This document shows, one piece after another, positions 4,529 through 21,146 of a DNA stretch of 21,561 nt. Position 1 is the first letter of the stretch. The number at the start of each line of letters is the position of its first letter. The stretch comes from a virus. The stretch is from IMG/VR virus record IMGVR_UViG_3300042301_004602, positions 1-21,561 of that record; one strand, given 5' to 3'. A program made the position numbers and the translations under genes. The notes under the pieces were generated by a model. It was not told the DNA's origin. It did not search any database and saw only the letters and a program-made list of their open reading frames with translations.

Positions 4529-4744
4529 TTATTCAGCATTGATTATTGCCTTAGTCCCATCAAAAGTCATTACGCCTTCACAGGCAAAGTAAGCAAGTTT
4601 TCCTAAAAATGTTTTACAAGGGACATTGACTTCTATTTCGCCAACTACCCATTCCTGTAAAAGTTTAGTACGATCTTGGTTTGTTTCGGTAATACTCCAA
4701 GGCGCCTCTTGTCTCCTGCTAAAGTTAAAGAAGTAATAACTCAT
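4529..4744 (-). CDS. Hypothetical 71-aa protein, last gene of adhesin cassette A
   Basis: I do not recognise this family. The protein is mixed alpha/beta with an aromatic start (MSYYFFNF) and two cysteines (CKTFLG, ACEG), without a signal peptide or membrane segment. Its ATG overlaps the stop of the companion-protein gene by one base (TAATG read on the minus strand), so it is translationally coupled to the adhesin cassette. The segment GTKAIINAE at its end is followed by the terminator region. Cassettes B and C do not carry a copy, so this gene is special to cassette A. A role in virion assembly or as a tail-fibre accessory is only inferred from position. Confidence 0.6.
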   Translation of the reverse strand: MSYYFFNFSRRQEAPWSITETNQDRTKLLQEWVVGEIEVNVPCKTFLGKLAYFACEGVMTFDGTKAIINAE

Positions 4745-5052
4745 TATACTACTGAGTTGGGGTCTACAGGATAATCAAAAGGTGGTTTCCATTGTAAGTT
4801 ATATTCATCAAGTATCCAGTCATCTGCTGGACACGGCGCAATAAAAGCATCTCTAACAGGGTCGTAAGTAAACCCGATACCAGCGTAGTTAAATCTAATG
4901 TTGTTATTATAAGAAGTTCTTATACAACGTTGCCCTCTAAAATTGCCATACCATTCTTCAGGGCTTAACCCTTCAATAGTCTCAGTCTCGTCAATACCTG
5001 TGATGACCTCGGTAACAATATTATTTTCGTCTAAAAATGCATAGTGTGCCAT
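4744..5052 (-). CDS. Adhesin-companion protein A (MAH-type small protein)
   Basis: A 102-aa protein of a small family with three members in this window (here, 10366 and 13784). Shared marks are a start like MAHYAFLDENNIV, a central TSYNNNIRFNYAGIGFTYDPVRDAFIAP, and a C-terminal WILDE..LQWKPP. Similar short proteins follow glycine-rich tail fibres in aquatic phages, from memory; no biochemical role is established that I know of. It is always directly downstream of an adhesin: here the ATG overlaps the adhesin stop by one base, and the junction ACTTTCTAATGGCACAC is the same as in cassette C. A tail-fibre assembly factor or small virion protein is the most likely role. Copy A is the shortest and lacks the final Trp-Asp-Glu repeat seen in B and C. 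Confidence 0.75.
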   Translation of the reverse strand: MAHYAFLDENNIVTEVITGIDETETIEGLSPEEWYGNFRGQRCIRTSYNNNIRFNYAGIGFTYDPVRDAFIAPCPADDWILDEYNLQWKPPFDYPVDPNSVV

Positions 5053-6410
5053 TAGAAAGTTATAGTTCCTGTTCCCGCTGTAAAGCGATAGACGCGATAA
5101 CCTGCGCGGCTTGGTTGGTTATATGTTAATCCGCTAATTGAAGTAGGTGCTGGGAAACTGTCTGGGTAGGCAATAATTACAATACCTGAACCACCGCTTG
5201 CGCTTGATCCCATACCAACATAACCGCCACCACCGCCGCCTGTGTTTGCTGTTCCAGCAACACTTGAACCGCCGCCGCCACCAACGCCGCCTACACCTGC
5301 TGGACCTTCACCAACAGGGTATTGGAAGCCACCAGCACCTCCACCGCCACCAGCGTAAGGAGTAGATGTGCCACTGATAGAAGTATAAGAACCTGCGCCA
5401 CCGCTACCGCCAGTAGCGCTGTAAGTTGCTGCGCCATTGCCGCCTGCAGCGCTTGCACCACCGCCGCCGCCTTGAGAACCTGGACTTGAAGGAGGACCAT
5501 CGCCACCTTTATTTCCTTGACCTGATGTTCCTGCAGCACCAGCTACACCTACCTGAGCAGAACCACCACCTGACCCACCAGTGTTAGGACCAGTATTAGT
5601 AGTATATCCAAGGCGTCCTTGCCCACCGCCAGTCGATGTTATAGAAGAAAATACAGAGTTAGAACCATTAGTAGTGCTGCCTGCCCCAACAGTTACCGTG
5701 TACGCAACTCCTGTTGATACACCAAGAGTTGAAGCCCGATAACCACCCGCACCGCCGCCGCCGCCACTAAACCCAGGGCCACCGCCTCCGCCTGCAACGA
5801 CAAGGTACTCAACGCTAGATAAAGCAGGAGCAACTGGAGTCACTGAGTTAGACGCAGAGCTTGCTGCTGAGGTTCCATTAGCATTAGTTGCAGTAACGGT
5901 AAATGTATATGCGACTCCATTAGAGCCTGAGACTGTAATTGGGCTTGCACCTGTTCCAGTTTGTCCACCTGATGATGTTGCCGTGAATACGCTAACTGCA
6001 GCTCCGCCGTTTGCACCTGCCGTGTAGGTAACTGTAGATGATGCGTTACCTGCCGTGGCAGACCCGATGGTTGGTGCCTGCGGGACCGTTGTTGCAGTGA
6101 TCGAGTTAGATGCGCTAGACGCACCTGACGTGCCAATCGCTGATGTAGCAGTTACAGTGAATGTATAAGCTGTCGCAGACTGCAACCCTGTTACAGTTAT
6201 AGGTGAGCTTGCGCCTGTCCCCGTATAGCCGCCTGGGCTTGAGGTAACTGTGTAAGAGCTGATAGGTAACTTACTTGTAGGAGCTGTGAATGTTACAGTT
6301 GCTGCGCCATTGTTGTATGCTCTCGAGGTACCTACGTCAGTTGCAGTGCCAATAGTTGGAGCAACTGGTGCGCTTTTAGCGCCTGAACCTTGTGCTCCGA
6401 TGATTGGCAT
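5052..6410 (-). CDS. Glycine-rich tail adhesin A with two FN3-like domains
   Basis: A 452-aa virion adhesin candidate. Residues 1-193 form an N-terminal tip (MPIIGAQGSGAK) and two fibronectin-III-like repeats (APTIG...TVTATSAIGTS...SNSITATTVPQ, then APTIGSAT...SNSVTPV). From about residue 200 the strand motif EYLVVAGGGGG starts a glycine-rich region with many GGGG and GGSGG tracts, ending IVIIAYPD and a C-terminal strand cap TAGTGTITF. Such domains occur in phage receptor-binding tips, where polyglycine helices can pack together; this is family knowledge, not seen here. Compared with copies B and C the N-terminal part is conserved and the C-terminal part differs, as expected if the tip sets host range. 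It lies on the opposite strand from B and C, 14 nt downstream of a serine recombinase, and has its own leaderless-type promoter. Confidence 0.85.
   Translation of the reverse strand: MPIIGAQGSGAKSAPVAPTIGTATDVGTSRAYNNGAATVTFTAPTSKLPISSYTVTSSPGGYTGTGASSPITVTGLQSATAYTFTVTATSAIGTSGASSASNSITATTVPQAPTIGSATAGNASSTVTYTAGANGGAAVSVFTATSSGGQTGTGASPITVSGSNGVAYTFTVTATNANGTSAASSASNSVTPVAPALSSVEYLVVAGGGGGPGFSGGGGGAGGYRASTLGVSTGVAYTVTVGAGSTTNGSNSVFSSITSTGGGQGRLGYTTNTGPNTGGSGGGSAQVGVAGAAGTSGQGNKGGDGPPSSPGSQGGGGGASAAGGNGAATYSATGGSGGAGSYTSISGTSTPYAGGGGGAGGFQYPVGEGPAGVGGVGGGGGSSVAGTANTGGGGGGYVGMGSSASGGSGIVIIAYPDSFPAPTSISGLTYNQPSRAGYRVYRFTAGTGTITF
6379..6398 (-). repeat. 20-bp exact repeat in adhesin A start, inverted relative to adhesin C
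   Basis: Read on the minus strand, GGAGCACAAGGTTCAGGCGC is identical to plus-strand 12450-12469 in adhesin C. It encodes residues 5-11 of the adhesins (GAQGSGA). The two copies form an inverted pair about 6 kb apart. Confidence 0.8.
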
Positions 6411-6416
6411 GTAGTT

Positions 6417-6445
6417 ATTCTATCTTACTTTGGTTCTTCTGATTG
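6417..6445 (-). promoter_or_regulatory. Leaderless-type promoter of adhesin A
   Basis: On the minus strand CAATCA (6440-6445), a 17-bp spacer and TAGAAT (6417-6422) end 6 nt before the adhesin ATG at 6410. The box GATAGAAT and the following bases closely match adhesin B (GATAGAATAAnnACATGCC). No Shine-Dalgarno sequence stands before the ATG. It overlaps the 3' end of the recombinase gene. Confidence 0.6.
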
Positions 6446-7114
6446 TTGATCTAACACATATTTAATACTAGAAGCAGACCACTTTCCGCCGTAGGCGGTA
6501 GGAATGCCTTCAACGTCAAGCATCCGCGCTATTACACGAAGAGAGAGACCTTTTTCTCTTTCTGCAATGATACGACTGCGAATCTCATCGGAGATCAACT
6601 GCTTGGGACCTAGATCTACACCCCATACCTGCCCACTGTCTCGTCTATGTTTATGTACATCCTTTTGGCGCTCTGCGATGATGCCTCGTTCCATCTCTGC
6701 AAGAGCGGACATGATTGTTGTGACGAACCTGCCTTGATACGTTGAGGTGTCAAGGTTGAGATCAAGAAGGACTAGACGCCAGTTATTCTTAGCCGCGCGG
6801 TCTACGATTGACAAGAAGTCGGTGGTAGATCTTGCCAATCGGTCGATACGAGTAACAATCAAAGCCTGGGCAGTTCCGTTATCAAGTCTGGTTAGTGCGT
6901 CACGAAGCACGGGTCTGCCTGCGATTGACTTACCACTGCGACCTTCTTCAAGCAAGACTTCTACGCTTGAGAAGCCTGCAAACTCGGCCGCATTGCGTAA
7001 AGTCTTCTCCTGAGCTTCCATACTCATGCCATCATTAACCTGCATCTGTGTGCTGACTCGGGCATACAAAAGTGCGTGTTCTACCTGCTTTTCAGGCTGT
7101 ACATTCTTAGTCAA
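6425..7114 (-). CDS. Small serine recombinase (resolvase/invertase family)
   Basis: A 229-aa site-specific DNA recombinase. The N-terminal resolvase domain shows LLYARVST at 16-22 (catalytic Ser21, with Arg19), GRSGKSIAGRP at 58-68, TRIDRLARS at 88-96 (active-site arginines) and the long E helix ALAEMERGIIAERQ at 138-150. A C-terminal helix-turn-helix follows (KGLSLRVIARMLDVEGIPT), then a short GGKWSASSIKYVL segment as in larger serine recombinases. At this length it resembles resolvases and invertases more than 450-600-aa integrases. The start is TTG at 7114 with AGAAGG 8 nt upstream; no ATG fits better. It is the gene directly upstream of adhesin A, suggesting a role in tail-fibre cassette rearrangement, but its site is unknown. 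Confidence 0.9.
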   Translation of the reverse strand: MTKNVQPEKQVEHALLYARVSTQMQVNDGMSMEAQEKTLRNAAEFAGFSSVEVLLEEGRSGKSIAGRPVLRDALTRLDNGTAQALIVTRIDRLARSTTDFLSIVDRAAKNNWRLVLLDLNLDTSTYQGRFVTTIMSALAEMERGIIAERQKDVHKHRRDSGQVWGVDLGPKQLISDEIRSRIIAEREKGLSLRVIARMLDVEGIPTAYGGKWSASSIKYVLDQQSEEPK

Positions 7115-7136
7115 AAACAGTACCTTCTATCGCTAA

Positions 7137-7180
7137 TGTACAATATTTCAATACCTACAACTATACAAAGACATTGTACA
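7137..7180. promoter_or_regulatory. TGTACAAT inverted repeat upstream of the recombinase
   Basis: TGTACAAT (7137-7144) and ATTGTACA (7173-7180) are perfect 8-bp arms 28 bp apart. A further TGTACA lies at 7098-7103 inside the recombinase start, and TGTAC at 7197-7201. Centre-to-centre distances are about 39, 38 and 22 bp. The arrangement fits an operator or a recombinase-binding site; function is inferred. Confidence 0.4.
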
Positions 7181-7253
7181 CCCTTAAGGTCAAGGATGTA
7201 CGGATTTTAACAGGGTTTAGGCGGTTTGGCAGGGCTTAAAGAATAAAAAATAG

Positions 7254-7400
7254 CTACTGCTGAAAGTCTGGAGGAACGAGCTCGTCTAGCTTCTCCCACA
7301 TAGCTTTAAGGTCTAGATTGTTTAATTGCTCGCGTTGAGTTTCGGCGTCCTGTATAGTCTGTATATCAAGTCTTTCCATATGTACCCCGTACTTTACCAT
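7254..7400 (-). CDS. Possible 48-aa (or 41-aa) small protein
   Basis: A short minus-strand frame ending ..LDELVPPDFQQ. The ATG at 7400 gives 48 residues (MVKYGVHMERLD...) with a weak AAGAAG about 9 nt upstream; the ATG at 7379 gives 41. The product is charged and helical (QTIQDAETQREQL), with no recognisable domain. It lies about 140 nt upstream of the recombinase on the same strand, in a stretch of roughly 400 bases that otherwise holds only the TGTAC repeats. Amino-acid make-up looks protein-like, but there is no strong ribosome site, so it could be a chance frame. Confidence 0.4.
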   Translation of the reverse strand: MVKYGVHMERLDIQTIQDAETQREQLNNLDLKAMWEKLDELVPPDFQQ

Positions 7401-7476
7401 AGCATAAGACTTCTTAGTAGGACTTCTTGGTGCCTTGGTAAGAAGTAAAATAATTTAAGATTCAACTACCCAAAAG

Positions 7477-7505
7477 CTATCACCGCAGGTTATTTGAGAT
7501 ACTAT
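7477..7505 (+). promoter_or_regulatory. Leaderless-type promoter of the acidic protein gene
   Basis: CTATCA (7477-7482), a 17-bp spacer and TACTAT (7500-7505) end 6 nt before the ATG at 7512. The block TATCACCGCAGG (7478-7489) recurs at 11936-11947 with the same 10-bp distance to the -10 box. There is no Shine-Dalgarno sequence. Confidence 0.6.
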
Positions 7506-7511
7506 TAGACA

Positions 7512-7778
7512 ATGGATTATCCTGAGGACCCAGAGTATGCTGAAGATGATGTTCTACAGCAGTACCTTGATGAAGAGGGTCTAGCCTTAGTACCTGTTGA
7601 ATTCATGCGTGAATTGATGCTTCTTATGGAGGCTCACATAGTTAACCTATGCGGAATAGATAGAGACGAACTCAACGAGATAATGATACGCATGGAGGAG
7701 CTTCTTGGTGAAGAGGGTCTTATGGACCTATCCATGGAGGACATCATCGGCTGGGTAAATACCTTAAAAGACGCCTAG
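7512..7778 (+). CDS. Acidic 88-aa hypothetical protein
   Basis: I do not recognise this family. About a quarter or more of the residues are Asp or Glu, with only a handful of Arg/Lys, so the isoelectric point must be very low. It is predicted mostly helical (EFMRELMLLMEAHI, DELNEIMIRMEELLGEE, SMEDIIGWVNTL) without signal peptide or membrane span. The start is the first ATG after a leaderless-type promoter. It is followed by the promoter of the structured RNA at 7800. Very acidic small phage proteins can mimic DNA or bind basic host proteins, but nothing specific in the sequence shows that here. Confidence 0.7.
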   Translation: MDYPEDPEYAEDDVLQQYLDEEGLALVPVEFMRELMLLMEAHIVNLCGIDRDELNEIMIRMEELLGEEGLMDLSMEDIIGWVNTLKDA

Positions 7779-7787
7779 TCTTCCTGT

Positions 7788-7793
7788 TATAAT
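7788..7793 (+). promoter_or_regulatory. -10 box of the structured RNA
   Basis: A consensus TATAAT hexamer lies 10 nt after the stop of the acidic gene. No clear -35 is visible (TTAAAAG lies near the right distance). It would start a transcript near 7800, at the first base of the structured region. Confidence 0.5.
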
Positions 7794-7799
7794 TTAACT

Positions 7800-8028
7800 A
7801 TCGCCACTGGCCTGGAGCCGCTACTAGTAGCTTGTCACGACGAAAGTGAAGTCTAGCTAATCCCGCTACTGCGAATCGTCCTGGACATGACGTACAACTG
7901 TCATCCACTCCAACTTCAGAGTTGAGTGTCTAGCACTGGCTGGGTAGACATCGAGTGGGTAGTTGATTAGCGGGCTACCTTTAGGGTAGTATACAAAGCG
8001 CTGCCAGTGCTAGACTCGATTCTTTTTT
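7800..8028 (+). ncRNA. Structured ncRNA or regulatory leader of about 230 nt
   Basis: A stretch with no credible ORF, starting just after a TATAAT and ending in a T run. Pairings visible by eye: CCCGCTA (7862-7868) with TAGCGGG (7968-7974); CAACT-TCAG-AGTTG near 7911-7924; CTACC-TTTAG-GGTAG near 7975-7989; and GTCTAGCACTGGC (7928-7940) with GCCAGTGCTAGAC (8003-8015). The 3' strand GCCAGTG can also pair with CACTGGC at 7805-7811, and GCTAGAC with GTCTAGC at 7851-7857. So two mutually exclusive folds of the 3' end exist. It does not match RNase P, tmRNA, SRP RNA or a cobalamin riboswitch as I know them. It may be a free phage RNA or an attenuator for the cupin gene. Confidence 0.55.
7928..8028 (+). 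terminator. Long-stem terminator-like 3' end of the structured RNA
   Basis: A 13-bp perfect stem (7928-7940 with 8003-8015) extends to about 15 bp with a 2-nt bulge (GAGT with ACTC). It is followed after a few bases by TCTTTTTT (8021-8028). The loop is about 60 nt and itself structured. The stem competes with a pairing to the RNA 5' end. Confidence 0.55.
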
Positions 8029-8039
8029 ATTATTTATGA

Positions 8040-8045
8040 TACAGT
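8040..8045 (+). promoter_or_regulatory. -10 box of the cupin gene (leaderless type)
   Basis: GATACAGT places TACAGT (8040-8045) 6 nt before the ATG at 8052. It lies directly after the T run of the upstream RNA, so the cupin operon can be read independently of it. No -35 of the ATCA type is seen. Confidence 0.45.
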
Positions 8046-8051
8046 CCGTAC

Positions 8052-8402
8052 ATGACACCGGAGATCTTTGTTCGCCCTTGGGGCTTCTACGTAATTTTAC
8101 ACACCGAGCAAAAGGTGCAGGTTAAACGAATACACGTTGAAAACGGAAGTCGTCTCAGCAAGCAGTCTCACAAACACCGCGCAGAGCATTGGTACATCAC
8201 ACAAGGCTATGCAGAGGTAGAGTTATTTGACCAGATACTTCATCTTGGCCCGGGAGATTATGTCTCAATTGGAGTTGGAGAAGTTCACCGCGTAAGAGCC
8301 GAAGGTGAAGGCGACCTCGTCTTTATCGAGATTCAAACAGGCGAGTATCTTGGAGAAGATGACATCATTCGATATGAAGATGATTTTGGACGTGTAGAGT
8401 AA
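8052..8402 (+). CDS. Cupin of the type II mannose-6-phosphate isomerase family
   Basis: A 116-aa single cupin. It follows the C-terminal domain of bifunctional GDP-mannose pyrophosphorylase/phosphomannose isomerase closely: RPWGFYVIL, VKRIHVENGSRLSKQSHKHRAEHW (metal-ligand histidines), ITQGYAEVELFD, GDYVSIGVGEVHRV, and the end FIEIQTGEYLGEDDIIRYEDDFGR. Family activity is isomerisation of mannose-6-phosphate and fructose-6-phosphate; the nucleotidyltransferase half is absent. The ATG is preceded by a leaderless-type -10 box. Its stop overlaps the methyltransferase ATG by one base (TAATG), so the two form one unit, directly upstream of adhesin B. A sugar-modification role for virion or host surface is inferred. 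It could instead be a sugar-binding regulator. Confidence 0.82.
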   Translation: MTPEIFVRPWGFYVILHTEQKVQVKRIHVENGSRLSKQSHKHRAEHWYITQGYAEVELFDQILHLGPGDYVSIGVGEVHRVRAEGEGDLVFIEIQTGEYLGEDDIIRYEDDFGRVE

Positions 8403-8977
8403 TGGAGCAAGAGCTTCCTACGTGGTTCAACCACGTTAAACCAAACTTTGAAAGCTACCTTACGTTTCCTAATGAAAACATCATACCTGTCCCGTTAAAC
8501 GTGCTGCAGATCGGCGCGTACAAGGGTGACACAACGCAGTGGCTTTTAGACAATAAAAACATCAACAGGATAGTAGACGTTGACACCTGGGAAGGCTCAA
8601 TCGAGCACGAAGGAACGTTTGACTTTAACCAGGTTGAGAGAGTCTACGACGAAAGATTCACCGCAGTTGAGAAGGTTGAGAAGCGCAAGGGTACAAGCGA
8701 TAGATACTTTGCAACGCGCCCTGAAGGTGAAACATTCAACGTCATCTATATAGACGGAGATCACACCGCATTGCAAACGGCGATTGACTCCTTAAACTCG
8801 TGGAGGATCTTAGAGGTTGGCGGGATCATGATATTTGACGATTACGACTGGCACATGTACCAAGGAACACCGTTGCATCCTAAGGACGGTATCGACTGCG
8901 TCCTGAGGTTATTTAGAGGGCGCTACAACCTTATCGTTACGAACTATCAGGTCTGGATTCGTAAGACGGCGGAGTAG
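8402..8977 (+). CDS. Class I SAM-dependent methyltransferase (family 24 type)
   Basis: A 191-aa protein with a Rossmann-type methyltransferase fold. Motif I is NVLQIGAYKGDTTQWLL at about 33-49, the acidic loop is VDVDTWEGS at about 58-66, and the motif FNVIYIDGDHTALQTAIDS near 111-130 with GGIMIFDDYDW near 139-150 is typical of Methyltransf_24 proteins. The DGDH and DDY residues commonly bind a metal in this family. The substrate is unknown; members next to sugar genes often methylate glycans. It is coupled to the cupin by a TAATG overlap, and adhesin B starts 40 nt downstream. Methylation of a sugar made with the cupin is plausible but unproven. Confidence 0.8.
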   Translation: MEQELPTWFNHVKPNFESYLTFPNENIIPVPLNVLQIGAYKGDTTQWLLDNKNINRIVDVDTWEGSIEHEGTFDFNQVERVYDERFTAVEKVEKRKGTSDRYFATRPEGETFNVIYIDGDHTALQTAIDSLNSWRILEVGGIMIFDDYDWHMYQGTPLHPKDGIDCVLRLFRGRYNLIVTNYQVWIRKTAE

Positions 8978-8981
8978 TACA

Positions 8982-9010
8982 CTATCAACTATAGACAGGC
9001 ATGATAGAAT
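8982..9010 (+). promoter_or_regulatory. Leaderless-type promoter of adhesin B
   Basis: CTATCA (8982-8987), a 17-bp spacer and TAGAAT (9005-9010) end 6 nt before the ATG at 9017. It shares GATAGAATAA with the adhesin A promoter. No ribosome-binding sequence is present. Confidence 0.6.
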
Positions 9011-9016
9011 AAACAC

Positions 9017-10363
9017 ATGCCAATTCTAGGAGCCAGCGCATCAGGCGCAAAAGCAAGTCCTGTTGCACCGACTATCGGGACGGCAACTAACGTAGGAACG
9101 TCAAGAGCGTATAACAATGGAGCAGCGACGGTAACCTTCACGGCTCCTAACTCGAAGTTACCTATTAGCTCTTACACGGTGACTAGCTCACCTGGATCAT
9201 TTACCGCTTCAGGTGCGTCAAGTCCTTTAACAGTGACAGGATTACAGTCCGCAACTGCATACACATTTACAGTTACTGCAACGAGTGCGATTGGGACTTC
9301 TGCAGCATCTAGCGCATCTAATTCTATTACTGCCACAACTGTTCCACAGGCACCAACGATTGGAACAGCGACTGGCGGAAACGCGTCAGCGACAGTTACC
9401 TATACGGGTAACAACACGGGTGGAGCAGCTATATCTACTTATACGGTAACTGCATCACCAGGCGGCGCAACAGGGGCAGGAACGTCAGGAACAAACACAG
9501 TCTCAGGATTGAGTAACGGCACAGGCTATACATTTACAGTTACAGCAACTAACGCTAATGGAACCTCAACTGCAAGCTCTGCTTCTAACTCAGTAACCCC
9601 TGTTGTACCTATCCCTGTTGTTACCGGTGGGTCGCTTACATCAGACGCAACTTATTATTATCGCACCTTCACTGGTAATGGAACTTTAGGCGTTTCAAAT
9701 GGAACAGTTTCAACAACTATTCTTCTTGTGGCAGGTGGTGCTTCTGGTGGTACTAGACAAGGCGGCGGCGGGGGAGCTGGCGGAGTTGTTTACGGAGACC
9801 AATCTTTTTCTTCTAATGCATCTATTGTTATTGGCGCGGGCGGTACTGGTGCTGATGGAGGTGATAACGGTACTGCTGGCAATGCTTCTAGTTGTACTGG
9901 AGTAACAACTGCTGTTGGCGGCGGTAGAGGTGGCGGCAACAGTAGCGGTGGCACTGGTGGTTCAGGTGGTGGCGGTAACGGTAGTCAGGAAAACTTTGGA
10001 GGCGGAGGTGTACAAGGAAATGGCGGCGGTAGAGGTAAAGACGGTTCAGGCGGTGGCGGTGGTGGCATTGGTGGAGGCGGCGCTGCTGGAACTGCTAGTG
10101 TGGGTGGCAATGGTGGTAGTGGTGGAACATATTTAGGACTTACTCTTGCTGGTGGTGGTGGTGGTGGTCATGCTGCTTCATTTACTAATAGTACAGGCGG
10201 TTCAGGCGGTGGCGGAGGTGGCGGAGGATTTGGAAATAGTGGAACTAATGCTACTGGCTACGGTAGCGGTGGCGGTGGTGCAGGGTACTCAACAACCATC
10301 TCAGGCAGCGGTTTTCAAGGAATTTGTGTAGTTAGATACACAAGATCACAGGTAGGAGGATAA
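9017..10363 (+). CDS. Glycine-rich tail adhesin B with two FN3-like domains
   Basis: A 448-aa adhesin paralogous to the genes at 5052-6410 and 12438-13784. Residues 1-195 repeat the same architecture (MPILGASASGAK, then two FN3-like repeats ending SNSVTPV). By eye about 13 of the first 116 residues differ from adhesin A. After VTGGSLTSDATYYYRTFTGNGTLGVS the glycine-rich domain begins at about ILLVAGGASGG and runs to the end with long GGGG tracts. The C-terminus (GFQGICVVRYTRSQVGG) differs from the SITF-type ends of A and C, so B carries another tip class. It is probably a receptor-binding fibre protein. Glycine codons are mainly GGC and GGT, with some GGA. The companion gene follows after an AGGAGG ribosome site. 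Confidence 0.85.
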   Translation: MPILGASASGAKASPVAPTIGTATNVGTSRAYNNGAATVTFTAPNSKLPISSYTVTSSPGSFTASGASSPLTVTGLQSATAYTFTVTATSAIGTSAASSASNSITATTVPQAPTIGTATGGNASATVTYTGNNTGGAAISTYTVTASPGGATGAGTSGTNTVSGLSNGTGYTFTVTATNANGTSTASSASNSVTPVVPIPVVTGGSLTSDATYYYRTFTGNGTLGVSNGTVSTTILLVAGGASGGTRQGGGGGAGGVVYGDQSFSSNASIVIGAGGTGADGGDNGTAGNASSCTGVTTAVGGGRGGGNSSGGTGGSGGGGNGSQENFGGGGVQGNGGGRGKDGSGGGGGGIGGGGAAGTASVGGNGGSGGTYLGLTLAGGGGGGHAASFTNSTGGSGGGGGGGGFGNSGTNATGYGSGGGGAGYSTTISGSGFQGICVVRYTRSQVGG

Positions 10364-10365
10364 TT

Positions 10366-10716
10366 ATGGCGCATTGGGCTGAGATAGACGAAAACAACAT
10401 TGTTTTAAGAGTAACTGTTGGAGACAACAATGAACCAGATGAAGGCTATCAATGGTTGATTGATAATTTAGGCGGGACATGGTTACAGACTTCATACAAT
10501 GCAACTATTCGCAAGAACTATGCAGGAATTGGAATGACTTACGATGAAGCACGAGACGCGTTTATTGCGCCTAAGCCTTTTGAGTCATGGATATTAGATG
10601 AAACAACTTGCACCTGGAAGGCTCCAGTAGACATGCCTGTTACAGAAGGCAAGTACTACACATGGAACGAAGATACTCTTTCATGGGACGAGCATACTCC
10701 GGTAACTCCAGAATAA
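10366..10716 (+). CDS. Adhesin-companion protein B (MAH-type small protein)
   Basis: A 116-aa member of the small family also found at 4744-5052 and 13784-14149. It has MAHWAEIDENNIVLRV, a central TSYNATIRKNYAGIGMTYDEARDAFIAP, and WILDETTCTWKAP, then a C-terminal Trp-rich repeat YTWNEDTLSWDEH. Function is not established; position after each adhesin suggests an assembly or virion role. The start ATG has AGGAGG 6 nt upstream, and the adhesin stop lies only 2 nt before the ATG, so expression is coupled. The transcription unit ends at the terminator at 10731. Confidence 0.8.
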   Translation: MAHWAEIDENNIVLRVTVGDNNEPDEGYQWLIDNLGGTWLQTSYNATIRKNYAGIGMTYDEARDAFIAPKPFESWILDETTCTWKAPVDMPVTEGKYYTWNEDTLSWDEHTPVTPE

Positions 10717-10730
10717 ACTTAAACAAAATA

Positions 10731-10766
10731 AAAGACCGCGCCCGTTTGGACGCGGTCTTTATTTTT
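10731..10766. terminator. Bidirectional terminator between convergent genes
   Basis: AAAGACCGCG (10731-10740) pairs with CGCGGTCTTT (10751-10760), with an inner CC/GG pair around a GTTT loop. T's follow on the plus side (ATTTTT, to 10766) and the mirror-image A-rich flank gives U's on the minus transcript. It serves the companion gene and the secreted protein gene at 10773. Confidence 0.92.
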
Positions 10767-10772
10767 GTAACT

Positions 10773-11879
10773 TTACGGTAGGCGAGTACCGGAGATAGTT
10801 GTTTCCTGACCTGTCCCAAGATCTCGTAGAACAACCTTAATTTGATACTCTTCTGTAGGTGATAGCCAGTCAATATGAACTATCTTTCCAACACCGTCTA
10901 GACCAATTGCAGTCGTGGAGCCGTTCTTATCTACAATCATAAGAGTTGCCCATGTCTTATTAGGATCAAAGTTTGGAACGTCCGCAACAGAGATACTTGC
11001 AGAGCGGTGACCGTTTGTCCCTTCTGCCTGTGCAACAACTGTAGGGGCAGCTATCGTTGCCTTATCAACAACTTCATTTCGTGCAGGCTCGGGAGCTACT
11101 ATAGGAGCTGCCGGTGTGGCAACAACTGTATTAGAGGTAACCGTCTCAGTCCCTGTTACAACGTCACGGACAGTGGTTTGAACTGTGATGTTGGCGTCCT
11201 GTGGGACTGCCTTAATCACTACCGTGTCGCCGTTATTAGATACACCGACGCTCGAGTGCGAGCGTCCGTCCGTGATTACCTGGACGGAGACAGTCTTGGT
11301 TGTATCTGTTACAACAGGAGCGGTAACGGTAACGGTTACAGAGTTGTCACTCTCAACCTTAACACCAGTTACAGTAGAAGCATTAGCATCTGCTACTGGA
11401 GTACCTGTAGGTTCAGGATTTGGATTAGCAACAACCTCGCCCGTTGTGTTAACGTCTGGAGTTTCTACAGTAGTAGAAGACGTTTGAACAGAGACGATAT
11501 CTCCTTGGTTGATTGCCTCAAGACGAATAACTCCGTCCTCGTCGATGTGCTTAACTCCACCGGACTCTGTAAGCTTGACAATAACGCCTGTTGCTCGAGT
11601 TACTCGCACAAGAGACGTTGTCTCCTTCCAGGTGATAATCTTATCAACTACGCCGCCTTGAAGAATTGCGTATCTATCTCCTACAACCGGAGTATCTACG
11701 ATCTCGTCTATTGAAACCTTAAAGTACGAGTTAGCGTTGATCTGTGTTCTGTCTTCCTCGTCGAGACGCGTTCGCGTGTCTAAGAAGCTATAGTCAATAC
11801 TCCACCAGGCGCTTGCGCCTTGGGCGGGTAAAAGTGAAATCGCGAGCGCAAGTGGTAGCGCTTTTTTAATAGGTAACAT
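10773..11879 (-). CDS. Secreted beta-rich protein of unknown function
   Basis: A 368-aa protein with a clear signal peptide: KK, a hydrophobic core ALPLALAISLLP and the cleavage site GASA-W near residue 24. The mature N-terminal domain (about 25-135) is rich in beta strands and charged residues (DRYAILQGGVVDKIITWKETTSLVRVTRATG). A Thr/Pro-rich linker (about 140-170) is followed by Ig/FN3-like strands (KVESDNSVTVTVTAPVV, KTVSVQVITDG, KTWATLMIVDKNG, EEYQIKVVLRDLGTG). There is no anchor or catalytic motif that I recognise. AAAGGA stands 6 nt before the ATG. It lies on the opposite strand between adhesin cassettes B and C. Export to the host surface or medium is inferred; the purpose is unknown. 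Confidence 0.72.
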   Translation of the reverse strand: MLPIKKALPLALAISLLPAQGASAWWSIDYSFLDTRTRLDEEDRTQINANSYFKVSIDEIVDTPVVGDRYAILQGGVVDKIITWKETTSLVRVTRATGVIVKLTESGGVKHIDEDGVIRLEAINQGDIVSVQTSSTTVETPDVNTTGEVVANPNPEPTGTPVADANASTVTGVKVESDNSVTVTVTAPVVTDTTKTVSVQVITDGRSHSSVGVSNNGDTVVIKAVPQDANITVQTTVRDVVTGTETVTSNTVVATPAAPIVAPEPARNEVVDKATIAAPTVVAQAEGTNGHRSASISVADVPNFDPNKTWATLMIVDKNGSTTAIGLDGVGKIVHIDWLSPTEEYQIKVVLRDLGTGQETTISGTRLP

Positions 11880-11934
11880 AAGGTGTCCTTTCGTCCTTTG
11901 TCATTGAAGATATAATAACAGGAAAAGTGCAAAA

Positions 11935-11963
11935 TTATCACCGCAGGATAAATAAGATAGAAT
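11935..11963 (+). promoter_or_regulatory. Leaderless-type promoter of the 45-aa/thioredoxin unit
   Basis: TTATCA (11935-11940), a 17-bp spacer and TAGAAT (11958-11963) end 5 nt before the ATG at 11969. The block TATCACCGCAGG (11936-11947) is the same as at 7478-7489, and the two regions align over about 40 bp with one gap. It is divergent from the secreted protein gene. Confidence 0.62.
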
Positions 11964-11968
11964 TAGGC

Positions 11969-12106
11969 ATGGAATTATCAAGGGAAGACATCGCTAAAGA
12001 GGTAGAAGACGCTATTAAACCTTTGATTGAGAAGCCTGGGTTTATGAATGCCCTTGGAACATTAACCATGGCGTTGGAGATAATTAGAGGGCACGATAAG
12101 AAATGA
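11969..12106 (+). CDS. 45-aa hypothetical protein coupled to thioredoxin
   Basis: A short helical protein (MELSREDIAKEVEDAIKPL..., ending IIRGHDKK). I do not recognise a family. The evidence that it is real is its position: a leaderless-type promoter ends 5 nt before the ATG, and its TGA overlaps the thioredoxin ATG in an ATGA junction (12103-12106). No competing start or ribosome site is present. Its role could be minor or purely to couple translation; the segment KPGFMNALGTLTMALEII is hydrophobic on one face but not a membrane span. Confidence 0.65.
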   Translation: MELSREDIAKEVEDAIKPLIEKPGFMNALGTLTMALEIIRGHDKK

Positions 12107-12423
12107 TAGAGGCAACAAACAAAAACTTTAAAGAGCTACTAGAAAACGACCTGCCCGTACTTGTAGACTTTTGGGCGGAGTGGTGCGGACCGTGTCGAAT
12201 GCTGGCGCCTATACTAGAAGAAGTAAGCTCAGATTATAAGTACGTTTTTATCACCGCAAAGTTGAATAGCGACGAGAATCCTGAGATAGCATTCAAACAC
12301 GAGGTTAGATCGATACCCACAATGATACTTTTCAAGAGTGGAATTGAGGTAGCAAGAATGACGGGTGCTAAGCCTAAGCCAGCAATTGTTGCCTGGTTGC
12401 AAGATCACGTTGAGCTAGGTTAG
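12103..12423 (+). CDS. trxA: Thioredoxin
   Basis: A 106-aa thioredoxin of normal length. The redox site WCGPC is at 27-31 within VDFWAEWCGPCRMLAPIL, and the cis-proline is at 72 (RSIPTMILF), followed by GIEVARMTGA. It should reduce disulfides in the cytoplasm. Within this phage the likely client is the ribonucleotide reductase at 14510, whose C-terminal cysteine pair needs such a reductant; this link is inferred from family knowledge. It is translated by an ATGA overlap from the 45-aa gene. The adhesin C promoter begins right after its stop. Confidence 0.95.
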   Translation: MIEATNKNFKELLENDLPVLVDFWAEWCGPCRMLAPILEEVSSDYKYVFITAKLNSDENPEIAFKHEVRSIPTMILFKSGIEVARMTGAKPKPAIVAWLQDHVELG

Positions 12424-12425
12424 GA

Positions 12426-12431
12426 TACAAT
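12426..12431 (+). promoter_or_regulatory. -10 box of adhesin C (leaderless type)
   Basis: GGATACAAT places TACAAT 6 nt before the ATG at 12438, matching the arrangement before adhesins A and B. AGATCA lies 18 bp upstream, inside the end of the thioredoxin gene. The AGGA in the spacer is too close to the ATG to act as a normal ribosome site. Confidence 0.55.
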
Positions 12432-12437
12432 AGGAAC

Positions 12438-13784
12438 ATGCCAATTCTAGGAGCACAAGGTTCAGGCGCAAAAGCAAGTCCGGTAGCGCCCACGATAGGT
12501 ACTGCAACAAATGTAGGCACGAGTCGTGCGTATAACAATGGTGCAGCTACCGTAACATTTACCGCGCCTAGCTCAAAGTTACCTATTAGCTCTTATACAG
12601 TCACCTCTAGCCCAGGCGGGTTTACTGGCACAGGGTCTAGCTCACCTATAACTGTCGCAGGATTACAGTCTGCGACCGCATACACATTTACAGTAACTGC
12701 AACATCAGCAGCTGGAACAAGTTCTGCGTCTAGTGCATCTAACTCAATTACCGCAACTACAGTCCCTGCCGCACCTACGATCGGATCAGCAACAGCCGGA
12801 AATGGCAGCGCTACAGTTGCTTACACAGCGGGCGCGACGGGCGGGGCGGCTGTAAGTACATTCACAGCAACATCATCTGGCGCACACACCGGAACAGGTG
12901 CAAGCCCGATTACAGTTTCAGGCTTAACAAATGGAACTGCATATACATTTACCGTTACTGCAACTAACGCAAATGGAACGTCAACAGCAAGTAGCGCATC
13001 TAACTCAGTAACTCCTATTAACCCTATACCTTCAACCGTTACTTATCTTGTAGTAGCAGGCGGCGGTAGTGGATCTGAGGTTGCTGGCGGTGGCGGTGGT
13101 GGTGGAGGCTATCAATCATCAACTCTTGGAGTGTCCGCTGGTACATACAGCGTTACTGTTGGCGGAGGTAGCGCATATCTTGGCAATGGTAATAATTCAG
13201 CATTTCATTCAGTAACCTCTACTGGCGGCGGCCGAGGCGGAAACCAATTTATGGTGGGTTCACCTCCTACCAGTGGTGGATCTGGTGGTGGCGGTGCTGG
13301 TAATACAAGCAACTCTAGTTTTTATACTGGTGGTGCGGGAATTGCTGGACAAGGAAATAACGGCGGCGGTCTAGGTGGTAATCCTTCTGGTGCTGGTGGT
13401 GGTGGCGGTAAGGGCGCTGTTGGTGGTAATAATAGTTCAACTAACGGCGGAAATGGTGGATCAGGTGCAACCTTTAGCATCAACGGTGGCACATACGCAG
13501 GCGGCGGCGGTGGTGGTGGAGCATACACAGGGCAAGCAAATGGTTCAGGCGGTGCTGGCGGAGGCGGAACTGCGGGTGCTGGAGCAGCAAACACAGGTGG
13601 CGGCGGTGGTGGCGTATTAGGCCAACCAGGGCTTAATAACCAAACAGGCGGTTCAGGTATTGTAATTGTTGCTTATTCAAGTAGTTTTTCTAATGCTTCT
13701 TCAACAACAGGTTCACCGTCATTTGTTAATAATGGAACAAATAAAATTTACACTTGGACTGGAAGCGGGAGCATAACTTTCTAA
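12438..13784 (+). CDS. Glycine-rich tail adhesin C with two FN3-like domains
   Basis: A 448-aa third paralogue. The N-terminal part (MPILGAQGSGAK and two FN3-like repeats, residues 1-194) matches A and B at protein level while many codons differ. A strand VTYLVVAGGGSG at about 198-209 opens a glycine-rich region that runs to about residue 410, then IVIVAYSSSF and the C-terminal cap YTWTGSGSITF. Both the YLVVAGGG entry and the SITF end are like adhesin A, so A and C share a tip class and B differs. It is the likely receptor-binding or fibre-tip protein. Its stop overlaps the companion ATG (TAATG). Glycine codons are mostly GGC/GGT. Confidence 0.85.
   Translation: MPILGAQGSGAKASPVAPTIGTATNVGTSRAYNNGAATVTFTAPSSKLPISSYTVTSSPGGFTGTGSSSPITVAGLQSATAYTFTVTATSAAGTSSASSASNSITATTVPAAPTIGSATAGNGSATVAYTAGATGGAAVSTFTATSSGAHTGTGASPITVSGLTNGTAYTFTVTATNANGTSTASSASNSVTPINPIPSTVTYLVVAGGGSGSEVAGGGGGGGGYQSSTLGVSAGTYSVTVGGGSAYLGNGNNSAFHSVTSTGGGRGGNQFMVGSPPTSGGSGGGGAGNTSNSSFYTGGAGIAGQGNNGGGLGGNPSGAGGGGGKGAVGGNNSSTNGGNGGSGATFSINGGTYAGGGGGGGAYTGQANGSGGAGGGGTAGAGAANTGGGGGGVLGQPGLNNQTGGSGIVIVAYSSSFSNASSTTGSPSFVNNGTNKIYTWTGSGSITF
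12450..12469 (+). repeat. 20-bp exact repeat in adhesin C start, inverted relative to adhesin A
   Basis: GGAGCACAAGGTTCAGGCGC, the partner of minus-strand 6379-6398. The 14-mer ATGCCAATTCTAGG that begins at 12438 also occurs at 9017 and 14153. Confidence 0.8.
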
Positions 13785-14149
13785 TGGCACACTTTGCAAA
13801 ACTAGATGACAGTAACATTGTTCTTGAAGTTAATGTTCTTAACAATGAAGTTTTAGATAACTTACCATTTCCTCAATCAGAACCAATAGGCATTGAATTC
13901 TTTACTGAATGGTCAGGTGGATATACTCATTGGCTGCAAACTTCCTACAATGGAAGTTTTCGCAAGAACTATGCTGGTGCGGGTTTTCTTTATGACCCGA
14001 TCCGTGATGCTTTTATTCCACCTCAGTTATATCCATCTTGGATATTAAACGAAGATACCTGCCAATGGGAAGCACCAGTGCCATACCCAGCGGATGATAA
14101 GCTATATGCGTGGGACGAGGCAACAACTAGTTGGGTAGAGGTTCAGTAA
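13784..14149 (+). CDS. Adhesin-companion protein C (MAH-type small protein)
   Basis: A 121-aa member of the companion family (MAHFAKLDDSNIVLEV, TSYNGSFRKNYAGAGFLYDPIRDAFIPP, WILNEDTCQWEAPVPYP, YAWDEATTSWVE). The frame is open further upstream to 13754, but the ATG at 13784 is chosen because it aligns with the two paralogues and makes the same TAATG overlap as in cassette A. Copy C has extra residues (GIEFFTEWSGGYTHW) before the TSYN core. Function is unknown; a role with the adhesin is inferred from three independent occurrences of the pair. Confidence 0.8.
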   Translation: MAHFAKLDDSNIVLEVNVLNNEVLDNLPFPQSEPIGIEFFTEWSGGYTHWLQTSYNGSFRKNYAGAGFLYDPIRDAFIPPQLYPSWILNEDTCQWEAPVPYPADDKLYAWDEATTSWVEVQ

Positions 14150-17005: not shown

Positions 17006-17329
17006 ATGCCAAAAGGAAGCCCTTCACTTACCAACGCCCGTAGTTCAATGCATAACCTGCGCCCCGTCTATGACGAGTGGGCTTGGCAGGAAGAGTCAAA
17101 TTGTCGTGGCGAAGACTCAGAGGTATTCTTTTTAGATCCGCAGGCGCGTGGTAAAAACAAACGCGATAAAGAACGCGAAGCTAAAAAGATATGTAAAGGT
17201 TGCCCTGTAGTTCAACAATGCTTAAACCACGCACTTGCAATCCCAGAGTTTTTTGGTGTCTGGGGAGGAATGACCGCGGATGAACGAAACTCTATTCTTC
17301 GCAAGCGAGGATTAAGAATAATCAAGTAA
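17006..17329 (+). CDS. WhiB-like transcription regulator 1
   Basis: A 107-aa WhiB-family protein. Four cysteines at 33, 63, 66 and 72 (NCRGED, ICKGCPVVQQC) are placed to hold a [4Fe-4S] cluster. The turn GVWGGMTADER at 84-94 and the basic tail RKRGLRIIK complete the family pattern. WhiB proteins bind the principal sigma factor and tune transcription; they are limited to Actinobacteria and their phages. It carries a Ser/Asn-rich N-terminal extension and an insertion DPQARGKNKRDKERE between Cys33 and Cys63, making it different from copy 2. Phage WhiB proteins can repress host whiB genes, known for one mycobacteriophage protein. Confidence 0.93.
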   Translation: MPKGSPSLTNARSSMHNLRPVYDEWAWQEESNCRGEDSEVFFLDPQARGKNKRDKEREAKKICKGCPVVQQCLNHALAIPEFFGVWGGMTADERNSILRKRGLRIIK

Positions 17330-17385: not shown

Positions 17386-17670
17386 ATGGCATTGGACATA
17401 CAACTATCTAGCAATTACCCTGTCTTTAAAGATCATGGAGTCCCAGCTTGTGCGACTACAGATCCGGAGATATTCTTTCCAGAAAAAGGAGCAAAGGGTC
17501 AATCTCTGTATATCGTCAACGCGGCTCGAAGAATGTGCGCAGGCTGCCCATATAAGCAACCTTGTCTTGACTGGGCCGTCGTCCACGATGAAATGGGAAT
17601 CTGGGGCGGTACGACCGCTAAAGAGCGACGTATTCACCGCAGAAAGCTTAAAAGTAACAAACAGCAATAA
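17386..17670 (+). CDS. WhiB-like transcription regulator 2
   Basis: A 94-aa WhiB-family protein. Cluster cysteines are 22 (PACATTDPEIFFPEKG), 51, 54 and 60 (MCAGCPYKQPC), with GIWGGTTAKERR at 71-82 and a basic tail HRRKLKSNKQQ. It is closer than copy 1 to the standard pattern (C, D, FFP). Two WhiB proteins in tandem suggest that the phage resets host transcription in two steps or against two targets, an inference. It has its own promoter with a palindrome over the -35; copy 1 or 2 could bind there. A leaderless mRNA is likely. Confidence 0.93.
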   Translation: MALDIQLSSNYPVFKDHGVPACATTDPEIFFPEKGAKGQSLYIVNAARRMCAGCPYKQPCLDWAVVHDEMGIWGGTTAKERRIHRRKLKSNKQQ

Positions 17671-18223: not shown

Positions 18224-19327
18224 ATGAAGTTAATCAAAAAAGTAGCAATGGCATCTGTCGTTGCGCTAGGCCTTGGAGTGTTTTCAGCACTTCCGGCAAG
18301 CGCCGCGGACATGTCGCTATCAGTAAAGGTGGGAGCGGCTGTTGCAGGTTCGAACGCAACAACAACTCTAGCACCTGCAGCAGTGACGGTACCAGCAGAC
18401 AACACAGTTGACGAAGCAGACGTAGTTCGTTTGGTCGCAACTGTAGACGCAGGTACATCAGTTTCATTCGCGGCAACAGGAGCTATCAAGCTCGTTGCAG
18501 CTCTCGACAATCCAGCGGCAGTACGTGTACGCTCGACTGACGGAGTTTCAGCAGTTGTTGTAGCAACAGGCACAGGTAACACTGCGACTGTTTACGCCTA
18601 CACAACAAGCGTTGCAGCAGGTACAGTTATCGTTTCTAACGGTGGCGTTACTAACACAATTTATATGAAGGGTACAGCGGGAGCTGCTAACGCAATTTCT
18701 CTAGTTGGTCCTTCTTCTGTGGCTTCCGGCACAGTTGCAACATACACATTTACAGCGGTAGACGCTTTCGGTAACAAGGTATCCGGCCTTGCGATTGCAG
18801 CTACAGTTGCAGGTGCAGCAGTTGCAGCAACTGGTCTTAACACAGCAACAGTTACAACAGCCGTTGAGACATCAACAGTAGGTCTTGGCAACGCAGAGCT
18901 TAAGATTCTTGCTCCTGCTAGCGGATCTATTACAATTGTAGCGACAGCTTCAGGGGTTCCTGCAGTTGCAGCTACCACGGCTGTAAGCGACTTAGCGGCA
19001 GAGCTTGTTAAGGTTAAGGCTGAGCTTGCTGCAGAGAAGGCTGGACGCGCTGCCGATAAGGTAGCTGCGGATAAGGCATTGGCTGACGCTAAGGCTGCAG
19101 CTGATAAGTCTTTGGCTGATGCTAAGACAGAGGCTGCACAGGCTAAAGCTGCTGCAGATGCTGCAATGGCTGTAGTAGTTGCAGATGCGTCTGCTGCTAG
19201 TATTGCTGCAAGTAAGGCAGCGGCTGATCTTACAGCCGCAGTTGCTAGCATGATGAAGAGCGTGGCTTCAATGAAGGCCAAGTACAACGCTATGGCGAAG
19301 AAGTATAAGTTCGCACCAATTAAGTAA
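18224..19327 (+). CDS. Secreted Ala-rich protein with Ig-like part and coiled-coil tail
   Basis: A 367-aa exported protein. The signal peptide MKLIKKVAMASVVALGLGVF runs to an ASA-A cleavage site near residue 27. Residues about 30-255 form beta-rich Ig-like repeats (SLVGPSSVASGTVATYTFTA is typical). From about 258 a long Ala/Lys/Glu/Asp heptad-like helix follows (KVKAELAAEKAGRAADKVA, KALADAKAAADKSLADAK), ending in the basic tail KAKYNAMAKKYKFAPIK. The TAGGAGA ribosome site is 5 nt upstream. It resembles surface proteins of small actinobacteria more than virion proteins, so acquisition from a host is plausible. It could mask receptors or be released with lysis. Function unproven. Confidence 0.75.
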   Translation: MKLIKKVAMASVVALGLGVFSALPASAADMSLSVKVGAAVAGSNATTTLAPAAVTVPADNTVDEADVVRLVATVDAGTSVSFAATGAIKLVAALDNPAAVRVRSTDGVSAVVVATGTGNTATVYAYTTSVAAGTVIVSNGGVTNTIYMKGTAGAANAISLVGPSSVASGTVATYTFTAVDAFGNKVSGLAIAATVAGAAVAATGLNTATVTTAVETSTVGLGNAELKILAPASGSITIVATASGVPAVAATTAVSDLAAELVKVKAELAAEKAGRAADKVAADKALADAKAAADKSLADAKTEAAQAKAAADAAMAVVVADASAASIAASKAAADLTAAVASMMKSVASMKAKYNAMAKKYKFAPIK

Positions 19328-19391: not shown

Positions 19392-19595
19392 TTAAGGTTT
19401 AGGCGGAAGAATATCTAGCTTATCATAGATAGCGGTGGCAGCTTCCCAGATTGTGTCGCTGTTGACAAACGCGTGAATGTCACAAAGAAGGATAATCTTG
19501 TTTTGGATCTCAGCTTTCACCGCAGCGAATGATGGGCAGAGATCACAGACGTCACCGTCAACTATAGGTGAGATCATTCCGTAGTTTAGGGGCAT
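19392..19595 (-). CDS. 67-aa putative zinc-binding protein
   Basis: MPLNYGMISPIVDGDVCDLC has a CxxC pair (residues 17 and 20), and a second site is LLCDIHAF (Cys38, His41). Together they fit a small zinc finger. The rest is helical (SFAAVKAEIQNK, DTIWEAATAIYDKL). No family is recognised. The ATG at 19595 follows a leaderless-type -10 box on the minus strand by 5 nt and has no ribosome site, which supports this start. It ends just before the terminator of the convergent block. Confidence 0.7.
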   Translation of the reverse strand: MPLNYGMISPIVDGDVCDLCPSFAAVKAEIQNKIILLCDIHAFVNSDTIWEAATAIYDKLDILPPKP

Positions 19596-19700: not shown

Positions 19701-19729
19701 ATATTTCCTTTCGTCATTTAATTAACTAG

Positions 19730-19802
19730 AGCGGACGACCGGGTTCGAACCGGCGACCTGAACCTTGGCAAGGTTCCGCGCTACCAACTGCGCTACGTCC
19801 GC
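19730..19802 (-). tRNA. tRNA-Gly (anticodon GCC)
   Basis: A complete cloverleaf on the minus strand. The acceptor stem is GCGGACG/CGTCCGC, the D arm GCGC-AGTTGGTA-GCGC, the anticodon arm GAACC-TTGCCAA-GGTTC with anticodon GCC, and the T arm GCCGG-TTCGAAC-CCGGT (one G-T pair). The discriminator base is U, usual for bacterial tRNA-Gly. CCA is not encoded. It reads GGC and GGT, the main glycine codons of the adhesins. Confidence 0.95.
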
Positions 19803-20168: not shown

Positions 20169-20356
20169 TTGCACATCGAACAGTAGAAAGGAATACGAAG
20201 GTTATCCTTATTAGTTCTGGTAACAGCAGAGCACTTAGAACACTTTGCGTGAATAAGATCTTTATTGTCAAACTTGCTTGTCTTAAAGATAGGTGATTTC
20301 GTGTAATAGAGTTTAGTTAGGTACCAGGTAAGCAATATTGCAAGAAGGGTAATCAC
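20165..20356 (-). CDS. 63-aa membrane-anchored zinc-ribbon protein
   Basis: An N-terminal span (ITLLAILLTWYLTKLYY, residues 2-18) is followed by a cytoplasmic-looking tail with CSKCSAVTRTNKDN and YCSMCK, two CxxC pairs that fit a zinc ribbon. The start is GTG and overlaps the upstream stop (GTGA, 20353-20356). The stop overlaps the next gene (ATGA). No family is recognised. Confidence 0.7.
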   Translation of the reverse strand: MITLLAILLTWYLTKLYYTKSPIFKTSKFDNKDLIHAKCSKCSAVTRTNKDNLRIPFYCSMCK

Positions 20357-20835
20357 TTCTTCTTGGCTTCCTGCAGACGCGTCTCATGACGCTGGACCGC
20401 GTAGTACAAGGGAGCAGAGGATGATAAGCCAAGTGCCTTAGAGACGGTTGCAAGGGAGATGCCTGCGTGATACGACCTGTGAAGCTCTTGATGGTAATCC
20501 TCGGTTGATACCTCGCGTGCCTTAAGAATGGACTCCATGGCCTTTGCGATGGTCTCCTCAGTTGCGCGTGAACGATTCTTACGAGCTACAGGAGGAATGG
20601 CCGAGGTAAAAACTCGTCGCCGCAGGCCGGAATAGGCAACACCTAGCTTAGAAGCAAGCGCAACTAGTGAGCCGCCCTTAGAGTAGTATTCCTTAACAAG
20701 CTCTGTGTACTTAGCCGAGGCCACATGCGCAGGAGTTGCTTGCCCTCTGAGGCCGTACGCCCTCTTTGCAAGATCAAGGTGAGGCGCAATTTTAGCCGCG
20801 TACTTTTCGGTAATCTCTTCGAAGTCTTTTTTCAT
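20353..20835 (-). CDS. 160-aa putative DNA-binding protein with two helix-turn-helix segments
   Basis: A basic helical protein. Two helix-turn-helix-like segments are visible: SLVALASKLGVAYSGLRRRV near residues 56-75 and SLATVSKALGLSSSAPLYYA near 126-145. Both have the small-residue turn and glycine typical of such motifs. The ATG at 20835 is chosen because it overlaps the upstream stop (ATGA, 20832-20835); the frame extends to 20883 but without ribosome-site support. It could be a phage transcription regulator or a terminase-small-subunit-like protein. It sits in a tight operon between the 104-aa gene and the membrane zinc ribbon. Confidence 0.75.
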   Translation of the reverse strand: MKKDFEEITEKYAAKIAPHLDLAKRAYGLRGQATPAHVASAKYTELVKEYYSKGGSLVALASKLGVAYSGLRRRVFTSAIPPVARKNRSRATEETIAKAMESILKAREVSTEDYHQELHRSYHAGISLATVSKALGLSSSAPLYYAVQRHETRLQEAKKK

Positions 20836-21146
20836 TTTGGGTTTCCTGATTCTGTCATTACGCGAGCTGCAGATACGTTCCACAGGTTGGATTTAATAAT
20901 TGCCTGGATTGCTTCATGCACCGCGACGGATGCCTTTTTTATATTAGTATTATCGGGATCCGATATAGATAGGTCATAGTCAAAAGACGCGACGATTCCA
21001 CGGTAGTCATCATGTGGCTCAACGGTAATCGTTTTCTTCTTTATATCTACAAAAGGTAAAAGAGAAGTAGCCTCGACAGCATTGTTAAATGCTTTCTCGG
21101 CTACATCTTCATCAACGTTTACTACGTATACTACAAGTCTTTTCAT
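20832..21146 (-). CDS. 104-aa hypothetical protein, first gene of an overlapping operon
   Basis: The protein is alpha/beta, starting with a strand RLVVYVVNV, then a helix AEKAFNNAVEATSL, strands FVDIKKKTITVEP and GIVASFDYDLSI, and a helix KASVAVHEAIQAII. No domain is recognised. The ribosome site AGGAGAG is 7 nt before the ATG, and a promoter lies upstream. Its stop overlaps the DNA-binding protein start (ATGA). It has no cysteine and no signal peptide. Confidence 0.75.
   Translation of the reverse strand: MKRLVVYVVNVDEDVAEKAFNNAVEATSLLPFVDIKKKTITVEPHDDYRGIVASFDYDLSISDPDNTNIKKASVAVHEAIQAIIKSNLWNVSAARVMTESGNPK

Follow-up and report, generated by a model that had tools for sequence, protein, structure and literature searches.

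The glycine tRNA gene in a virus genome fragment raises the question of what a phage gains from it; why phages carry tRNAs at all is debated, with codon bias, defence evasion and lysogeny among the explanations offered. The DNA analysed is an IMG/VR virus record of 21,561 bases (the window), for which a first-pass annotation had proposed that a phage tRNA-Gly(GCC) matches the glycine codon demand of tract-bearing adhesins and might relieve stalling there, perhaps late in infection. The window is a 21.6-kb fragment and its relatives are ~130 kb long, so its tRNA count covers the fragment only and the full phage may hold further tRNAs. The window's primase shares 78% identity with that of the Actinomycetia phage DSL-LC01, and the presence of two whiB-like genes and an RNR fits an actinophage. 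The whiB-like genes are adjacent (17006–17329 and 17386–17670), and many relatives carry similar genes. The long relatives G003, G010 and G014 measure 130–136 kb; in the closest two, tRNA-Gly(GCC) is either the sole tRNA (G010) or accompanied by Ile(TAT) (G003).

The tRNA gene and its bacterial counterparts

The only tRNA that ARAGORN reported for the window was a minus-strand tRNA-Gly(GCC) at 19729–19802, and Rfam scored it at 68.3 bits (gathering score 29), bearing out the single tRNA and anticodon noticed at first pass. The full cloverleaf was the minimum-energy fold, and G1:C72, C2:G71, U73 and C35C36, which are the bacterial glycine identity elements, could all be read from the sequence. 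The CCA end is not encoded. Promoter-like matches showed no excess over shuffled sequences. Beside this locus, the window encodes a 367-aa alanine-rich protein (18224–19327) whose N-terminus resembles a secretion signal and which matched no Pfam family; its homologues lie near the same site (locus A, see below) in several relatives.

Table 1. Positions of the tRNA gene, its neighbours and the glycine-rich genes in the window
Feature	Position	Strand	Evidence and properties
tRNA-Gly(GCC) gene, CCA not encoded	19730–19802	−	ARAGORN, Rfam, fold, 73/73 bacterial identity
Downstream tRNA neighbour, locus A	19392–19595	−	Weak DUF7455 match; kept in G010, G447, G011, G013
Upstream marker gene, locus A	20353–20883	−	Homologues in tRNA-plus G003, G010 and tRNA-minus G011, G013
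fn3 + Gly_rich_2 protein 1, presumed host-binding	5052–6410	−	452 aa, 24% Gly, 8 runs of at least 3 Gly
fn3 + Gly_rich_2 protein 2	9017–10363	+	448 aa, 28% Gly, 11 runs of at least 3 Gly
fn3 + Gly_rich_2 protein 3	12438–13784	+	448 aa, 25% Gly, 10 runs of at least 3 Gly

Bacterial copies of the tRNA were sought in 395 genomes belonging to the same class as G050 (Pimelobacter simplex, class Actinomycetes). An identical tRNA-Gly(GCC) (73/73) was carried by 18 of them, all of 1.2–1.9 Mb and with one 100% copy apiece, so that the gene is apparently single-copy in the host. The small size and moderate GC of these genomes suggest Nanopelagicales (acI). The bacterial gene adjoined tRNA-Cys in all six loci that were typed, and four of these also had tRNA-Val or tRNA-Leu farther along. 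A search of genome contigs with the adhesins identified no host, because the fn3 part is widespread, and no glycine-rich ORF was found in the 400 kb read from each of two genomes of the inferred host order. Among relatives of the phage, the tRNA copies differed by 0–5 bases, and the stem changes preserved pairing: in the G014 copy both the acceptor stem and the T stem had paired changes, in the G451 copy the T stem did, and the copies of G010 and G447 had single T-loop changes. The G014 tRNA resembled a second bacterial group more closely (97% identity) than the first (93%), which would be consistent with either separate capture or host tracking.

A phage tRNA equal to a bacterial one might reflect lysogeny, either as an attachment site or as a replacement for a host tRNA disrupted by integration. 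Actinophages with tRNA-dependent lysogeny exist (PMC10865867), and a predictor called DSL-LC01 lysogenic (PMC10611076). However, the identity between phage and bacterium ended at both edges of the tRNA, for which reason the attachment-site reading was rejected. A motif scan of the window and six long relatives found no tyrosine-integrase box-II motif, and a small serine recombinase was present in tRNA-plus and tRNA-minus relatives alike. We regard a role in lysogeny as very improbable.

The same identity bears on a possible defence counter-measure, in which the phage would make good the loss of a tRNA-Gly that the infected host has itself destroyed or blocked. There is precedent for phage tRNAs acting against tRNA-targeting defences (PMC10264068, PMC11555353), and the supply of only one isotype would fit such a counter-measure. 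The known evading tRNAs, however, usually differ in the anticodon loop; with an identity of 73/73, a nuclease cutting the host tRNA should also cut the phage copy, unless the latter is supplied in bulk. Nor does a counter-measure of this kind predict the link to glycine tracts described below, and we consider it improbable.

Glycine-rich proteins and their codons

Three proteins of the window (Table 1) contain 110, 124 and 114 glycine residues (24–28%) respectively, against 0–17%, mostly 3–9%, in the products of its other genes. These are the three tract proteins that the annotation had placed from about 5052, 9720 and 13030. In each, Pfam detected fn3 followed by Gly_rich_2 (PF21722), all above the cutoff. 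In PHROGs the trio belongs to phrog_2295, which has no assigned function, and two of them had weak tail-protein matches; that they are adhesins is plausible from these sequence features. The pattern (GGN)5 matched the window 26 times and 100 shuffled versions not once. A DNA-pattern search for common adhesin N-termini, in which the query sequence was a guess, gave no matches.

The surroundings of these genes had further features. Within 5052–14149, the gene for protein 1 is inverted relative to those for proteins 2 and 3; it adjoins a small serine recombinase gene (6425–7114; PHROG ‘integrase’/‘DNA invertase’) that is kept in nearly all relatives, and a 504-nt inverted repeat, 75% complementary, has its arms at 5924–6427 and 12421–12924. 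This arrangement suggests that host-binding cassettes may be inverted or shuffled. Each tract gene is followed by a gene for a small phrog_7759 protein (4744–5052, 10366–10716 and 13784–14149), possibly a dedicated partner or chaperone of the tract proteins.

Within runs of at least three glycines, GGT and GGC (GGY) made up 117 of 133 codons (88%) and GGA/GGG the other 16, compared with 217 of 356 (61%) and 139 in the other genes of the window (Fisher p=2e-9). The claim that GGC and GGT fill the adhesin tracts thus agrees with the counts, and glycine codon use in adhesins is not that of other genes, the difference being mostly confined to glycine. In six of seven records with tRNA-Gly(GCC), GGY in the glycine-rich genes exceeded the background by 12–18 points and the other four-fold codons, pooled, moved by −5 to +4, so the third-base shift was glycine-specific; G447 was the exception, having the tRNA without the glycine-specific shift. 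Records in which no GCC tRNA was found gave a mixed picture for this shift.

Does the tRNA itself drive the bias? Phages without Gly(GCC) had a similar tract GGY of 76–82% (G031, W01 and G035), and two genomes from the order inferred for the host showed a mild rise in GGY, from 63–65% of all glycine codons to 71–79% in glycine (GGG) runs. GGY-rich tracts are therefore not caused by the window tRNA alone, and the idea that the tRNA drives them is weakened. For whole adhesin genes, the glycine-specific excess differed weakly between tRNA-plus and tRNA-less phages (one-sided p=0.035, with non-independent rows). The tract codons did differ according to the isoacceptor carried: GGA/GGG made up 9–16% in five GCC records and 22, 36 and 20% in three TCC phages (one-sided p=0.018), the tract codons of G588, G590 and G591 being taken from pattern matches only and G572 being left out of the comparison. 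Compensation for rare codons was rejected, since GGY is commonly used by the inferred host (63–65%, as above) and accounts for 54–61% of glycine codons in phage genes outside the glycine-rich ones, in the long GCC relatives and the window.

Association of glycine tRNAs with glycine tracts

Our survey took in 29 phage records with a minimum length of 90 kb, which may themselves be incomplete; in these we counted (GGN)5 matches and typed the tRNAs. Records with at least 17 matches were called tract-rich and those with at most 8 tract-poor, a cut-off set after the gap between 8 and 17 had been seen. A glycine tRNA was present in 12 of 14 tract-rich but only one of 15 tract-poor records (Fisher p=2.2e-5, kinship ignored). 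The association persisted when the four records found via the tRNA pattern were removed (8/10 compared with 1/15, p=3.4e-4), and for the family that was sampled through its major capsid protein the records of at least 90 kb gave 8/8 and 0/3.

Gly(GCC) occurred in the tract-rich records G003 (27 matches), G010 (37), G014 (116), G451 (43) and G572 (62), as the sole tRNA in four. Among other lake phages, Gly(TCC) was the sole tRNA in G590 (L602; 96 matches), G591 (L611; 20) and G463 (L630; 17), and was joined by Asn in G588 (L610; 20). An Asn–Gly(GCC)–Gln set was found in G567 (21) and G579 (30), and G586 (17) had both glycine isoacceptors together with Asn and Gln. The two tract-rich records without any tRNA were G476 (58) and G459 (39); G035, at 87.6 kb under the length limit, has 33 matches and no tRNA, and would be a third exception. 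No glycine tRNA was found in the tract-poor DSL-LC01, G031, G589, G456, G457, G461, G462, G464, G465, G470, G471, G472, G474 and G479, several of which have Thr, Pro, Arg, Ile, Ser, Asn, Met or Glu tRNAs. The tract-poor G034 has Gly(TCC) among nine tRNAs. Below the length limit, a 62-kb fragment (G598, L629) has Gly(TCC) with no tract matches seen, and L494 (IMGVR_UViG_3300027271_000063, 69,499 bases) packs 24 tRNAs of many isotypes into 3 kb, one of them a Gly(GCC) matching the same tRNA pattern.

Thus, every record of at least 90 kb in which tRNA-Gly(GCC) was found also had abundant tracts. The proposed match between this tRNA and adhesin demand held as an association with tracts, but not as one peculiar to the GCC anticodon, as Gly(TCC) takes its place in G588, G590, G591 and G463; that GCC tracks adhesins and nothing else was rejected on G590, which has 96 matches, no GCC and Gly(TCC) as its sole tRNA. 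Nor is the link obligatory, given the three tract-rich phages without a tRNA. Total glycine does not explain the association, since DSL-LC01 and G031 contain 8.7–8.9% glycine and have no glycine tRNA, whereas G451 has one at 7.6%.

Insertion sites and shared ancestry

The tRNA-Gly(GCC) gene was found at three distinct loci in relatives. At locus A (the window, G003, G010, G480 and G447) it lies beside homologues of one or both neighbours listed in Table 1; at locus B (G014, G001 and G002) it lies beside a different gene; and at locus C (G451) it separates two genes, the homologues of which are direct neighbours in G003, G010 and G014, with no tRNA between them. In G033, locus B is occupied by tRNA-Glu(CTC) (37459–37533; L236) instead of glycine, so that the site takes different tRNAs. 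G011, whose primase is 97% and whose homologue of the upstream marker protein is 92–93% identical to those of the window, covers loci A and B and has no tRNA in the record; a glycine-tract gene was likewise absent from the 40 kb read, which included both loci. Five adhesin-bearing fragments without the tRNA (G013, G450, G449, G005 and G006) were discarded as counterexamples: not all known tRNA sites are covered by them, and they are therefore uninformative. Three of the five look closest to G451, which has its tRNA at locus C.

These observations need to be weighed against shared ancestry and chance, by which this group of lake actinophages would gain host tRNAs at tRNA-prone sites with little or no functional link to the glycine-rich tail genes. 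The records contain few independent events, and the correlation could thus partly reflect common descent: the label is clustered on the trees of both RNR and capsid, and each tree offered only two usable independent pairs, concordant or neutral and none discordant, which leaves this comparison underpowered and short of formal phylogenetic significance. The acceptance of Glu(CTC) at locus B, the other tRNAs of many tract-poor relatives (e.g. Thr(TGT), Arg(TCT) and Ile(TAT)) and the tRNA-less G476, G459 and G035 are all in keeping with such an origin. On the other hand, two isoacceptors and three loci are involved, glycine is often the only isotype that tract-rich phages carry, the tracts of TCC phages are richer in GGA/GGG, the tRNA copies keep their pairing, and the Fisher probability is 2e-5, albeit with relatedness ignored. 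On balance, we think it rather unlikely that ancestry and chance account for the whole pattern.

A proposed role for the phage tRNA

As a whole, the evidence is best explained, with a slight leaning in its favour, by the phage tRNA raising the supply of glycyl-tRNA for glycine-tract proteins. The gene would yield a functional glycyl-tRNA of host type, which during infection would supplement the product of the apparently single bacterial gene. Runs of 3–8 successive glycine codons, mostly GGT or GGC, would drain one tRNA locally, and the larger supply would then serve translation of the fn3/glycine-rich, probably host-binding, proteins. Expression and charging of the tRNA, the identity of the host and a causal benefit are what we infer here. 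The glycine tRNAs of this group, with one anticodon or the other, appear to result from repeated acquisition at different sites, in parallel with glycine-tract proteins. A broader and more tentative proposal is that freshwater actinophages repeatedly recruit host glycine tRNAs, GCC or UCC according to their tract codons, specifically for polyglycine host-binding proteins.

If true, this would be tRNA provisioning at the level of an amino acid and for a single class of protein, comparable in a virus to the glycine tRNA of the silk gland. The group offers a testable case in the debate on phage tRNAs, as one isotype, often the sole tRNA, tracks one protein class and not genome-wide codon rarity. 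Confirmation would tie the tRNA content of a phage to the make-up of its host-binding proteins, such that each could help to predict the other in metagenomes, and an unaltered tRNA gene could point to the host lineage.

Comparison with known systems

The nearest named genome, DSL-LC01 (OQ999401), is a 129-kb genome from a lake metagenome (PMC10611076) and shares with this group its size of ~130 kb, WhiB, RNR and the serine recombinase. Unlike the window, it has Thr, Pro and Arg tRNAs, no glycine tRNA and 8 (GGN)5 matches; several of its glycine-containing proteins carry a collagen-like annotation. The tRNAs with which phages escape tRNA-cleaving defences (PMC10264068, PMC11555353) are likewise supplied by the phage during infection, but anticodon-loop changes are typical of them, whereas the window tRNA is identical to bacterial copies. 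A works-like analogy may be drawn with E. coli, in which a raised glycyl-tRNA pool allowed a large spider-silk protein to be made (Xia et al. 2010, as described in PMC8957953): more glycyl-tRNA would in both cases support glycine-dominated proteins, one system being an engineered bacterium and the other a phage gene, with no evolutionary relation between them. Finally, codon usage has been offered as the reason for phage tRNAs (Bailly-Bechet et al. 2007, cited in PMC10611076; PMC13015707), and here too the anticodon matches codons heavily used by phage genes. The present case differs from that explanation in that the host, too, commonly uses the codons in question, the demand lies in a few genes with glycine runs and not across the genome, and it is the isotype, not codon rarity, that tracks.
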